DNA of 64,000 bases from Bacteroidota bacterium (GTDB lineage: Bacteria; Bacteroidota; Bacteroidia; 2-12-FULL-35-15). Of the stretch, positions 20,496 to 39,657 are shown in pieces. Numbering within the stretch: position 1 is the first letter of the stretch; each line of letters begins with the position of its first letter. The notes under the pieces are model-generated. The model had not been told where the DNA came from and made no database searches. It was given only the letters and a program-made list of their open reading frames with translations. Position numbers and translations under genes: made by a program. The stretch covers positions 248,001 through 312,000 of the forward strand of contig JAOQAE010000002.1 in NCBI GenBank assembly GCA_025963725.1, in the 5' to 3' direction.

Positions 20496-21419
20496 ATGAC
20501 GGCATTAAGCACGAAGCACTTACTTGGAATAAAGGACCTTACTCCTGACGACATCCATCTCATACTGGATACTGCTGAAAGCTTTAAGGAAGTGATCAAC
20601 CGGCCGATCAAAAAAGTGCCTTCCCTCAGGGACATTACCATTGCCAATTTATTTTTCGAAAATTCCACCCGCACCAAGCTTTCCTTCGAGCTCGCCGAAA
20701 AGCGCCTGAGCGCCGATGTGATCAATTTTGCCGCATCATCCTCTTCCGTAAAAAAAGGCGAAACGCTGATCGATACGGTGAATAATATCCTTGCCATGAA
20801 GGTTGATATGGTGGTAATGCGCCATCCGAACCCCGGAGCGGCGGTGTTCCTGTCGAAGCACATTGATGCGAAGATCGTGAATGCCGGCGACGGCGCGCAT
20901 GAGCATCCCACGCAGGCGCTGCTGGATGCTTTTTCCATCCGCGAAAAGCTGGGCAGCGTCAAGGGAAAAAAGATCGCGATCATTGGCGACATCCTGCATT
21001 CGAGGGTGGCGCTTTCCAATATTTTCTGCCTTCAGAAGCTGGGAGCCGAAGTGATGGTTTGCGGCCCGACCACGCTCATGCCGAAATACATTGCAAGCCT
21101 CGGCGTAAGGGTGGAGCATAACCTGCGCAAGGCGCTTGAATGGTGCGATGTGGCAAATATGCTGCGCATCCAGCTGGAGCGGCAGGACATTAAATATTTC
21201 CCTTCACTGCGCGAATACACCATGCTGTTCGGGCTCAACAAAGAGATCCTCGATTCACTTTCCAAAGAGATCGTGATCATGCACCCGGGGCCGATCAACC
21301 GCGGCGTGGAGATCACCAGCGATGTGGCCGACAGCGAGCAGAGCATTATCCTCGAACAGGTGGAAAATGGCGTTGCCGTAAGAATGGCCGTGCTGTTCCT
21401 GCTTGCGGGAAGAGGATAA
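20496..21419 (+). CDS. pyrB: Aspartate carbamoyltransferase catalytic subunit
   Basis: PyrB joins carbamoyl phosphate and aspartate in the second step of pyrimidine synthesis. All motifs are present in the 307 residues: the carbamoyl-phosphate site FFENSTRTKLSFELAEKR, SSSSVKKGET with its Lys, HPTQALLD, and HPGPINRGVEI near the C terminus. Length is normal for the catalytic chain. No pyrI is visible, so it may work as the simple trimer. pyrR precedes it, and the spacing leaves room for a separate promoter. Confidence 0.97.
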   Translation: MTALSTKHLLGIKDLTPDDIHLILDTAESFKEVINRPIKKVPSLRDITIANLFFENSTRTKLSFELAEKRLSADVINFAASSSSVKKGETLIDTVNNILAMKVDMVVMRHPNPGAAVFLSKHIDAKIVNAGDGAHEHPTQALLDAFSIREKLGSVKGKKIAIIGDILHSRVALSNIFCLQKLGAEVMVCGPTTLMPKYIASLGVRVEHNLRKALEWCDVANMLRIQLERQDIKYFPSLREYTMLFGLNKEILDSLSKEIVIMHPGPINRGVEITSDVADSEQSIILEQVENGVAVRMAVLFLLAGRG

Positions 21420-21518: not shown

Positions 21519-21866
21519 ATGAGTTTCCAGATAGAAAAGACAGATAAATACACCGTGATCAGGCTCCAGGCTGAAAAGCTGGACAGCAATCTTGCGCCTG
21601 CCCTAAAATCGGAGCTGGTGGTATTGAATACCGATGGTGTTAAAAGCATTATTATTGACCTTACGAGCACGCGCTACTGCGATTCATCCGGCCTAAGCGC
21701 CATACTCGTGGCCAACCGCCTCTGCAAGAACAGCAACGGGCAGTTTGTGCTTACAGGCCTGCAGGAGCCGGTTAAAAAGCTGATCTCCATTTCCCAGCTT
21801 GACACTATTTTAAACATTACGGCCACACTGCCGGAAGCGACCGAGCTGTTCGCTGTTAAAGCATAA
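21519..21866 (+). CDS. STAS-domain anti-sigma-factor-antagonist-like protein
   Basis: This is a small cytosolic SpoIIAA-type protein of 115 residues. The phosphorylation motif RYCDSSGLSAILVA is present (Ser56-Ser57), so a partner kinase (RsbW type) and SpoIIE-type phosphatase would control it by partner switching. Neither is visible nearby. The start is fixed by the promoter ending at 21501. The next gene starts 30 bases after its stop. The sigma factor or other target is not evident. Confidence 0.88.
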   Translation: MSFQIEKTDKYTVIRLQAEKLDSNLAPALKSELVVLNTDGVKSIIIDLTSTRYCDSSGLSAILVANRLCKNSNGQFVLTGLQEPVKKLISISQLDTILNITATLPEATELFAVKA

Positions 21867-21896: not shown

Positions 21897-22748
21897 ATGA
21901 TGAAAAAATTACTCTTCGCATTTTTCCTGGCTTCAACGTTCGGAACAACTGAAACTTTTGCACAGGCTTCCTGCACTCCCGACCTGAGCTGCCTCGGCAC
22001 TGCTACGGAAGGTATTTGCCCCGACAGCGCTACAGGCATCCCTACGGCAAACATCGGCGCAGCCTACAACACCACCGTAAGCGTAAAGATCCCGGCTGTG
22101 TACACCTACATGGGAACTACCTACAACCTTACTCATTTCGTGATCACCAATGTTGATGTGGATACTACTGCCGGCAGTACCGGGAGCTACGTTCCATTAT
22201 CGGCCATCGGCCTTACTTACCTTGGAAGCGGCGGAAATTCGCCATCGGGCGGCGCATCAGGCGTGAGCGGCGTAACCATGACACAGCACTGCTACTGGGC
22301 GGCACCCGGCAGCGCATGCGTTGTTGTTAGCGGAACACCAACCAAGCAGGGAACTTTCCCGATCCGCATCAAATCACAGATCCGCACACTTGTATTCGGT
22401 TCCGGCGTTTGGATCCCGGCACCGGACAACACGGATTACCGCATGACCGTTCTCGGGCCTGCAGGTGTTGAATCGATGAGCGCAGCTAAATTTGAAGTGA
22501 TGCAGAATAACCCGAACCCATTCAGCTCGGTATCGAAGATCAGCTTCAGCTCGGCAACTCCGGCTGATGTTGAGTTCAAAGTATTCAACATGCTCGGCTC
22601 TGTAGTTTTTTCTAAAACCATCAAAGCAGAAAAAGGAATGAATTCATACGAACTGGATGCCTCTTCTTTTTCAGCTGGCATATATGTTTATTCTATGAAA
22701 AGCGGAGATAAAACGATCACCAAACGAATGATCGTATCCGGTAAATAG
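21897..22748 (+). CDS. Secreted T9SS type A cargo, unknown function
   Basis: The 283-residue product has a signal peptide (KKLLFAFFLASTFGTTETFAQ) and a Cys/Gly/Thr-rich central part (PDLSCLG, GICPDSATG, GSGGNSPSGGASG) with a beta pattern. Its sorting domain reads FEVMQNNPNPFSSVSKISF ... VFNMLGSVVFSK ... FSAGIYVYSMKSG. I do not recognise the central domain; a segment on expected folding (FVITNVDVDTTAG ... GTPTKQGTFPIRIK) resembles immunoglobulin-like folds. rnz starts at the next base after its stop, yet a terminator-like hairpin sits 66 bases further on. Confidence 0.8.
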   Translation: MMKKLLFAFFLASTFGTTETFAQASCTPDLSCLGTATEGICPDSATGIPTANIGAAYNTTVSVKIPAVYTYMGTTYNLTHFVITNVDVDTTAGSTGSYVPLSAIGLTYLGSGGNSPSGGASGVSGVTMTQHCYWAAPGSACVVVSGTPTKQGTFPIRIKSQIRTLVFGSGVWIPAPDNTDYRMTVLGPAGVESMSAAKFEVMQNNPNPFSSVSKISFSSATPADVEFKVFNMLGSVVFSKTIKAEKGMNSYELDASSFSAGIYVYSMKSGDKTITKRMIVSGK

Positions 22749-23681
22749 ATGCAAAATTTTGAATTGACAATATTGGGCTGCAGCAGTGCAACCCCAACTT
22801 CTACAAGAAACCCTACCGCTCAGCTCCTTAACATAGCTGAGCGGTTTTTTTTAATTGACTGCGGCGAAGGCACGCAGATGCAGCTGCGTAAATACAAGGT
22901 AAAGTTCCAGCGCATCAACCACATCTTCATCAGCCACCTTCACGGCGATCATTTCCTCGGGCTCATGGGCCTGCTCTCCAGCATGCACCTGCTGGGGCGC
23001 ACCACCGACCTCCATTTGTATTGTCCGGCCGAGCTCCAGGAGATCCTCGAAGTGCAGAACAAGCACTCGCAAACGAGGCTCAATTATACCATCATTTACC
23101 ATCATCACAAGTACATAAATGAAGACCTCCTTTTTGAAGATGAGAAGGTGGAAGTACGTGCCCTTGTAATGAATCACCGCATTCCATGCTGCGGCTTTAT
23201 CTTCAGGGAAAAGCCGGTTACCGGCAATGTTTCGAAGGAGATCATCGGCAGGTACAGACTCACGGTAGAAGAGATCCTGTACCTGAAAAAAGGCTCCGAC
23301 CTTACGCTTGAGAACGGTACCGTGATCCCGAACAGGGAGATCGTTTCCAACAAAACACTCCCGCGCAGCTATGCGTTCTGCTCCGACACCATTTACCTCG
23401 AAAGCCTCGTGCCTTACCTGAAGGATATCGACCTGCTTTACCACGAAGCTACCTTCCTGCACGAGATGCTGGAGCGGGCGGTGGCCACGCACCATACCAC
23501 CGCTTTACAGGCAGGCATGATCGCGCAGAAGGCCAATGTGAAAAAGCTGATGATCGGGCATTATTCGGCGCGCTACAAGGACGTGGAGCCGCTTGTGGAA
23601 GAAGCGAAAAAAACGTTCGCGAACACCGTGCCGGCCATAGAAGGGCAGAGCACCGTTGTGGAAGCCATTCCTGTGGGCTGA
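22749..23681 (+). CDS. rnz: Ribonuclease Z
   Basis: RNase Z is a metallo-beta-lactamase-fold endonuclease that trims tRNA 3' ends, important for tRNAs without encoded CCA, such as the tRNA-Arg of this window. The 310 residues include the zinc motif HLHGDH (63-68), the opening LTILGCSSATPT, the RNPTAQLLNI and FLIDCGEGTQMQLRKY segments, YAFCSDT and the H-rich HEATFLHEM. Length and motifs are normal. The ATG follows the TAG of the previous gene with no gap. The 5' coding region contains a perfect hairpin with a T run (22815-22852). Confidence 0.96.
   Translation: MQNFELTILGCSSATPTSTRNPTAQLLNIAERFFLIDCGEGTQMQLRKYKVKFQRINHIFISHLHGDHFLGLMGLLSSMHLLGRTTDLHLYCPAELQEILEVQNKHSQTRLNYTIIYHHHKYINEDLLFEDEKVEVRALVMNHRIPCCGFIFREKPVTGNVSKEIIGRYRLTVEEILYLKKGSDLTLENGTVIPNREIVSNKTLPRSYAFCSDTIYLESLVPYLKDIDLLYHEATFLHEMLERAVATHHTTALQAGMIAQKANVKKLMIGHYSARYKDVEPLVEEAKKTFANTVPAIEGQSTVVEAIPVG
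22815..22852 (+). terminator. Terminator-like hairpin inside rnz coding sequence
   Basis: ACCGCTCAGCT (22815-22825), nine-base loop, AGCTGAGCGGT (22835-22845), then seven more Ts: an 11-bp perfect stem with an uninterrupted T run, encoding residues 23-35 of RNase Z. By sequence it is a textbook intrinsic terminator. Whether it acts inside a translated frame is unknown. Confidence 0.75.
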
Positions 23682-28977: not shown

Positions 28978-29010
28978 ACCCCTGTCAGGGTTTGGAACCC
29001 TGACAGGGGT
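28978..29010. repeat. Perfect 15-bp palindrome between convergent genes
   Basis: ACCCCTGTCAGGGTT (28978-28992), loop TGG, AACCCTGACAGGGGT (28996-29010). It begins at the stop of the kinase gene and ends nine bases before the end of yebC. Each arm holds a smaller palindrome (CCCTGTCAGGG). It lacks a T run on either side. It may still stop both convergent transcripts. Similar palindromes are common in Bacteroidota. Confidence 0.85.
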
Positions 29011-39620: not shown

Positions 39621-39657
39621 AAAGCCGCAGGTTCAATGAACCTGCGGCTTTTTTTAT
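39621..39657 (+). terminator. Intrinsic terminator of DEAD-box gene
   Basis: AAAGCCGCAGGTTCA (39621-39635), one-base spacer, TGAACCTGCGGCTTT (39637-39651), then a T run. The 15-bp palindrome will open to a small loop when folded. Confidence 0.9.

Follow-up and report, generated by a model that had tools for sequence, protein, structure and literature searches.

The window, i.e. the whole stretch of 64,000 nucleotides of DNA analysed here, carries on its plus strand a gene for ribonuclease Z (rnz), which is preceded on the same strand by genes for a T9SS-sorted protein, a STAS-domain protein and aspartate carbamoyltransferase (Table 1). The rnz product scores 331.9 bits against NF000801 (cut-off 252) and 297.7 bits against TIGR02651 (cut-off 292.95) and aligns from residue 5 onward to 1y44, which we take to be the RNase Z of B. 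subtilis. Close to the start of rnz lies a hairpin directly followed by a run of T, in the following called the element. Since the alignment to 1y44 begins at residue 5, the hairpin lies within conserved protein sequence. The stem consists of 11 perfect base pairs, the first T of the run (22845) also closes the stem, and the whole element (22815-22852) covers nt 67-104, that is codons 23-35, of rnz in frame. A sequence-only reading of the window had placed stem, loop and T run at exactly these positions, codon 23 beginning at 22815. Equally accurate is its claim that the upstream gene abuts rnz, the TAG stop codon occupying 22746-22748 and the rnz ATG starting at 22749.

Table 1. Features at the rnz locus (positions in the window).
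Feature	Position	Strand	Description
pyrB, aspartate carbamoyltransferase	20496..21419	+	further upstream
STAS-domain gene (anti-sigma factor antagonist type)	21519..21866	+	next upstream gene; start codon chosen by us
T9SS type A sorting-domain protein, 283 aa	21897..22748	+	stop abuts rnz ATG
rnz, ribonuclease Z, 310 aa	22749..23681	+	NCBIfam NF000801 and TIGR02651 above cut-off; best solved-structure sequence match 1y44
5' arm of stem	22815..22825	+	ACCGCTCAGCT; Thr23-Ala24-Gln25-Leu26
Loop, 9 nt here	22826..22834	+	CCTTAACAT; wobble positions variable
3' arm of stem	22835..22845	+	AGCTGAGCGGT; end of Ile29, Ala30-Glu31-Arg32, first base of Phe33
T8 run	22845..22852	+	Phe33-Phe34-Leu35; silent sites co-selected with stem

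The minimum free energy (MFE) of 22800-22860 is -19.7 kcal/mol versus -6.98 (sd 2.22) in dinucleotide shuffles (z = -5.7), and none of 200 such shuffles is as stable as the native sequence. The 8-bp core of the inverted repeat (gap 3-25 nt) occurs at a single place in the genome, which rules out a dispersed repeat or an uptake sequence. A search of 22600-23100 against Rfam gave no match at E<=1, and at the gathering threshold the whole window yields one tRNA and nothing else. The element is absent from the list of a simple hairpin scanner, probably due to its loop limit of 8, and our literature searches returned no description of a terminator or conserved structure in rnz.

To put the element in its genomic context, 384 kb of its own genome (coding share 88% by a crude ORF rule) were scanned strand-wise for perfect stems of at least 8 pairs followed by a T run. 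Hereby, 28 sites were found, 23 intergenic, 3 antisense and 2 in sense orientation within an ORF, so that such signals sit between genes in this genome. The two sense sites are the rnz element and L279 15701-15724 (minus strand). The latter was set aside as an in-gene terminator, its ORF being judged spurious after reading the three frames; read on the plus strand, this site is counted among the three antisense ones. The rnz element is the only convincing in-gene site of terminator-like form in the 384 kb, and its form is like that of gene-end terminators. The window also holds a classical intergenic terminator (39622-39650, plus strand; 13 bp and T7) and a perfect hairpin with a poor T run (28978-29010, minus strand; 15 bp, 3-nt loop).

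Within the genus, an rnz ortholog is present in 31 of 36 genomes, the genome of the window included (protein identity 66-100%); the remaining five have no rnz or a weak paralog only. All 31 genes pass the thresholds for stem and T run, and in all of them the stem reaches p<0.01 against 500 synonymous-codon shuffles per gene, drawn with the codon usage of the same gene (mean score 28.1 versus a null mean of 5.3). Among 162 degenerate codons whose amino acid is the same in at least 28 of the 31 genes, six never change codon. Five of these fall inside the element (Thr23 ACC, Ala24 GCT, Ala30 GCT, Glu31 GAG and Phe34 TTT) and the sixth, Phe150 TTT, outside; wobble sites nearby vary while the element stays. 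Arg32 is encoded by CGG in 19 of the 31 genes, a codon that accounts for 7% of Arg codons elsewhere in these genes, and by CGT in the other 12, whereby a bottom pair is lost and a T9 run is gained. As read from the sequence, the partner of every wobble base in the stem is fixed by the protein, so that conserved pairing must show as frozen codons, as is seen. Two genus genes (L051, L011) have an altered 5' arm and still pass the thresholds. Since all 31 genes keep the element, five of six invariant codons fall inside it and the synonymous null is beaten, the element is not a product of chance. Hence, the sequence-only reading withstands one of the two checks that it had itself put forward, conservation of base pairing at synonymous sites, and it was right to call the stem the surprising part: few sites of the gene are as conserved as the silent ones in the stem, and the arms covary across families. 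Raised codon conservation is also seen in genus rnz genes at several of the first 14 codons (Asn3 0.93, Glu5 0.97, Ala14 0.94), perhaps linked to translation start.

The element also occurs outside the genus. Further families of the class contributed 119 rnz starts, which are not a random draw (19 come from a search for relatives and 100 from the most similar rows listed). In these, the stem score at fixed register is bimodal. A score of at least 16 is reached by 42 of the 119 genes, from here on the non-genus carriers, and p<0.01 (500 synonymous shuffles) by 41; the carrier L093 has p = 0.012, and the lowest value among the other 77 genes is 0.034. A pattern scan of a named genome collection placed at least 90 loci at the same place in rnz among the 116 matches listed, at least 89 of them at offset 68 and one (L181) at 67; of the matches listed, 25 lie outside rnz and one (L211) has an rnz match that could not be placed. 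Carriers include cultured Marinilabiliaceae of the genera Carboxylicivirga, Saccharicrinis and Geofilum (Carboxylicivirga mesophila, C. marina, Saccharicrinis aurantiacus and Geofilum rhodophaeum). Over 162 carrier loci, in which 17 named loci duplicate a class locus, the 31-nt hairpin has a mean MFE of -18.7 kcal/mol (range -24.9 to -7.6); the value is -3.0 in the 77 non-carriers. One non-carrier (L084) and one carrier (L091) encode the same peptide SAQLLNIAERFFLIDC, and this natural silent-site control indicates that the protein does not require the hairpin.

For an even draw, 396 genomes of the class were searched with a covariance model built from 41 class carriers (alignment A1, see below), which gave matches in 129 genomes at E<=0.01. 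Matches at E<1e-10 were obtained in 65 genomes from 18 families, 18 genomes belonging to the genus and 47 to others. By coordinates all 65 lie at the start of rnz, four (G075, G077, G178, G201) having been checked separately, and the best match elsewhere in the 396 genomes has E = 3.8e-6. One of the 65 (G280, locus L084) is a decayed copy, scored above as a non-carrier.

Two alignments were used to follow the arms across families. A1 comprises 41 class carriers out of 69 distinct ones, the 28 omitted all being of the genus; A2 holds the 70 distinct rows of the 90 located named loci, 17 of which are the same stretch as a class locus, with L181 and duplicate rows (class rows included) left out. 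In A1, both-sided changes occur at 9 of 13 pairs, with 55 such cells versus a shuffle mean of 19.3. Pairing amounts to 89.3%, a figure inflated by the choice of carriers by stem score, and drops to 28-40% after sliding the partner by 1-3 columns. For example, GCT..GAG becomes GCC..GGG (L054, L079), ACC..CGG becomes AGC..CGC (L076, L111), GCT..CGG becomes TCT..AGG (L097), and CAG..GCT becomes either CAT..AAT/GAT (L036, L129) or CAA..CTT (L039, L100, L102, L105, L107), so that covariation often runs through amino-acid changes; L285 and L286 show further different sequences. In A2, where six pairs and the greater part of the T run are dictated by the scan pattern, free evidence comes from the inner pairs only, and T-run counts were not used. 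Here, 79 double-changed cells compare with 31.2 in shuffles, most of them in the inner five pairs, which are free in the pattern. The number of pairs with double changes (5 versus 4.6; 280 of 500 shuffles as high) is not raised, since the pattern fixes six pairs.

Phylogenetically independent contrasts, taken over well-supported branches of a tree from which the element's own columns were masked, gave on average 18.8 concordant and 0.9 discordant changes, the partner being unchanged in most contrasts (36.3); slid registers gave 1.8-4.3 concordant versus 1.4-4.8 discordant changes. These contrasts draw on carriers picked by stem score together with the pattern-scan rows, which inflates the percentage paired here as well; the shuffled and slid controls together with the unselected synonymous null guard against this bias. 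Mismatches and G-U pairs are tolerated, chiefly at the ninth pair, which is open in 14 of 41 (A1) and 18 of 70 (A2) rows. Constancy is greatest in the bottom eight pairs, except for the C-G pair that stands second from the bottom and does not form in 6 of the 41 A1 rows and 13 of the 70 A2 rows. Among carriers the continuous stem measures 5-13 bp; an additional 25 loci have an open second pair, and all 13 pairs are present in 62 of the 162 carrier loci. As far as sequence comparison reaches, the covariation demonstrates a selected helix and does not itself prove termination.

The T run was evaluated in the 42 non-genus carriers, picked by stem alone, with the rest of the same gene providing the expectation. 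In these carriers Phe33 is TTT in 37 of 37 cases (28.1 expected), Phe34 TTT in 40 of 41 (31.1 expected) and Leu35 TTR in 40 of 42 (21.3 expected). The corresponding values in the 77 non-carriers are 6/10 (7.3 expected), 39/45 (35.2 expected) and 43/75 (34.8 expected). Stem and U tract hence occur jointly, as is characteristic of an intrinsic terminator and not of a plain hairpin. The earlier suggestion that the T run is driven by the protein thus holds in part: the conserved FFL motif does give a T-rich stretch, but the protein is not the sole cause, as the excess of TTR at Leu35 of carriers demonstrates.

The element therefore unites a stable stem-loop, a U tract after the stem and a helix under selection, as looked for in an intrinsic terminator, and the terminator-like form first noted from the letters is backed by silent-site conservation, covariation and T-run co-selection. 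We consider it likely that the element is an intrinsic (Rho-independent) terminator, maintained within the 5' coding end of rnz by selection acting on the RNA, and attenuating this gene; rnz thus appears to possess a built-in brake on its own expression. Like gene-end intrinsic terminators, including the 23 intergenic sites of the 384 kb, the element has a perfect stem directly before a U run. It differs from them in lying in frame inside a translated gene, at codons 23-35 across many families, and in encoding conserved protein residues at the same time. Termination signals or RNA ends within coding sequence are described for E. coli in the excerpts available to us, which report ORF-internal 3' ends with terminator candidates (PMC7815308) and the cases of narY and rsxC (PMC5021804); unlike these E. 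coli observations, the rnz element is conserved across families with compensatory change.

The gene order suggests how such a brake could operate. In 161 carrier loci with upstream sequence, the gene before rnz encodes a T9SS-sorted protein in 95 cases, a STAS protein in 64 and another protein on the same strand in 2; 18 of the 95 T9SS neighbours were matched by the common sorting domain only and may be unrelated T9SS proteins. The gap to rnz is at most 35 nt in 152 of 159 carrier loci, 73 of which show overlap or abutment, and the other seven gaps measure 49 to 108 nt. In many Bacteroidia loci the gene before rnz codes for a T9SS-sorted protein of ~250-285 aa and often abuts or overlaps the rnz start; the non-sorting part of this protein matches in 77 carrier and 19 non-carrier loci. 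The STAS gene is found directly upstream of rnz in many relatives.

As rnz is the second gene of a closely spaced or overlapping pair, with the T9SS or STAS protein first, transcripts from upstream must pass the element, and we infer that the pair is co-transcribed. Some polymerases would then release at nt 97-104 of rnz, leaving an upstream mRNA with a stable 3' hairpin and a non-stop rnz stub, while others would read through and allow RNase Z to be made. The 5' arm begins 66 nt behind the start codon, so that a starting ribosome can cover it; a prompt start on rnz, e.g. by reinitiation at the abutting ATG, may thereby favour readthrough. In this way the element would determine how much RNase Z is made relative to the upstream product, and it may tie this ratio to translation.

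Leader-peptide attenuators such as those of pyrBI and trp are ribosome-mediated transcription attenuators, and the rnz element resembles them in that terminator formation would compete with a translating ribosome. It differs from them in that neither an antiterminator nor a separate leader peptide was found, the translated ORF being the controlled gene itself. Exact complements of six or more bases to either arm are absent from -90 to +62 in 27 of 31 genus genes and 37 of 42 other carriers, so that this search for exact complements did not reveal the alternative pairing of a ribosome-mediated attenuator. The pyr leader terminator also appears in the excerpt of PMC5021804, according to which ribosome stalling upstream of a terminator raises termination. 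In E. coli, as far as the available text of PMC4824070 goes, a terminator located no more than 100 bp into a coding region is reported to lose only ~10% of its efficiency to translation, early in-gene termination yields non-stop mRNA, and terminators later in the coding sequence are repressed. Judged by this result, translation dependence may be partial only; the rnz element (nt 67-104) lies at the 100-bp boundary, which leaves good odds for termination and moderate odds for its dependence on translation. Our searches found no data on transcription-translation coupling in Bacteroidota, and the accessible part of a paper on runaway transcription (PMC13323073) has no word that starts with Bacteroid.

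A simpler account would be that of a plain, unregulated terminator of the upstream gene or operon, which lies within the following gene since the two abut. This differs from attenuation of rnz in regulation only and would fit the close or overlapping order in 152 of 159 carrier loci, the likeness to the intergenic terminators of this genome and the result of the antiterminator search. Against it, the upstream neighbour differs between loci while the register in rnz is constant, and the element thus travels with rnz and not with a given neighbour. The 77 non-carriers have the same kinds of neighbours (STAS 31, T9SS 30, other 16), so that gene order alone does not explain the element. We regard the plain terminator as the less likely account.

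Going beyond attenuation, the element could be a dual-coded feedback device across many Bacteroidia families, in which the terminator senses translation start or RNase Z, the enzyme sets its own mRNA level co-transcriptionally, and codons 25 and 30 change in concert (Gln/His with Ala/Asn/Asp/His/Leu) on account of RNA pairing instead of protein function. As a whole this proposal is rather doubtful and is put forward tentatively.

RNase Z might also regulate itself through substrate mimicry, the hairpin imitating the acceptor/T-arm of a pre-tRNA with a U-rich trailer, so that excess enzyme binds or cuts its own mRNA after the stem. A precedent is B. subtilis RNase Y, which, according to the excerpt of PMC10303841, cuts its own mRNA in the first ~100 nt of the ORF. 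There too, an RNase gene has a control point early in its own ORF, but control is exerted through cleavage by the enzyme, whereas the rnz element is a terminator-like structure. In favour of mimicry, the host gene encodes RNase Z itself, strong model matches occur only there, and 62 of the 162 carrier loci have the full 13 pairs. A pre-tRNA mimic would, however, be expected to hold 12 bp, and the continuous stem varies between 5 and 13 bp with the ninth pair often broken. The loop is devoid of a T-loop consensus, as judged by eye, and a constant helix of ~12 bp with a T-loop is thus not what the carriers have. Moreover, cleavage beside the stem has no obvious need for T co-selection to the end of the 8-nt run. 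Altogether, mimicry is unlikely.

Less probable still is that the element forms the 3' end of a regulatory small RNA originating from the upstream gene or the 5' end of rnz, in analogy to E. coli ORF-internal RNAs, some of which are perhaps ended by intrinsic termination (excerpt of PMC7815308). Within the genus, codons 1-22 are less codon-conserved than the hairpin, Glu5 (0.97) and Ala14 (0.94) notwithstanding, and such an RNA would arise as a side effect of the terminator itself. Transcriptional slippage is also known where a homopolymer run directly follows a stem, as it does in the element. The shifted frames stop at scattered, mostly short distances across carriers, so that no conserved second product of slippage on T8-T9 is evident; slippage could occur as a by-product and is very unlikely to be what the element is kept for. 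A DNA-level site, i.e. a regulator-binding palindrome or an uptake sequence, would account for the long inverted repeat but is highly improbable, given the single place in the genome, the joint change of the arms to different sequences and the co-selection of a one-sided T run. Finally, that the well-conserved motif TAQ...ERFFLID with its T-rich FFL codons produced the element by coincidence can practically be dismissed in view of the beaten synonymous null, the codon invariance concentrated in the element, the covariation through amino-acid changes and the shared peptide of L084 and L091.

The reading as a terminator attenuating rnz has some general bearing. In-gene terminator-like signals are easily dismissed as chance, and here one is held at the same codons of a conserved tRNA-processing gene in carriers that represent 18 families or more. 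Codon choice visibly pays for it, and amino-acid changes are linked to it. If the reading is true, transcription-translation coupling in Bacteroidota becomes testable with one construct. The case also carries a warning, in that amino-acid covariation in a protein can stem from RNA pairing.

Carriers are unevenly spread. In a sample of 392 genomes from the phylum, the covariance model found one genome at E<=1e-7, that of the window. Apart from the genome of the window, the rows listed from this sample are 20 genomes belonging to the same class, with a completeness of 100% and a contamination of 0%; judged from these 21 of 392 rows, the draw seems to favour well-finished genomes. Given 65 of 396 genomes in the class draw and 1 of 392 in the phylum sample, class-wide would be too strong a term, and uneven spread reconciles the two figures only partly. 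Searches of more than 40 genomes used stricter filters and scored 15 candidates per genome, so that weak or degenerate copies may be missed. A search across the taxonomic order returned matches from the window's genus only, and the carrier sample as such is weighted towards relatives of the window and metagenome assemblies. As 77 of the 119 non-genus class genes are without the element, many of them with the same neighbours, it is dispensable.

In an rnz tree (FastTree) built from 192 of 240 loci, with L181, 23 rows of the genus and 24 that were short or cut left out, carriers form clusters that are scattered over the tree: the best tree requires 24 changes of carrier state versus 58.8 expected if random, at least 7 of them on well-supported branches, so that the element must have been gained or lost several times. 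The tree fits an old and often lost element as well as one that arose repeatedly, and cannot tell the two apart.

Apart from this, the listed genomes of four families (f10, f14, f49, f61) have no or a weak match to rnz and thus no ortholog, which suggests that their tRNA 3' ends mature without RNase Z or through a highly divergent form of it. Two contigs carry a Bacteroidota-type rnz with the hairpin under other labels, one as Chlorobiota (L172), which groups with Marinilabiliaceae, and one as a Woesearchaeota archaeon (L181), in which the hairpin is one base out of register; both are probably mislabelled or mis-binned.
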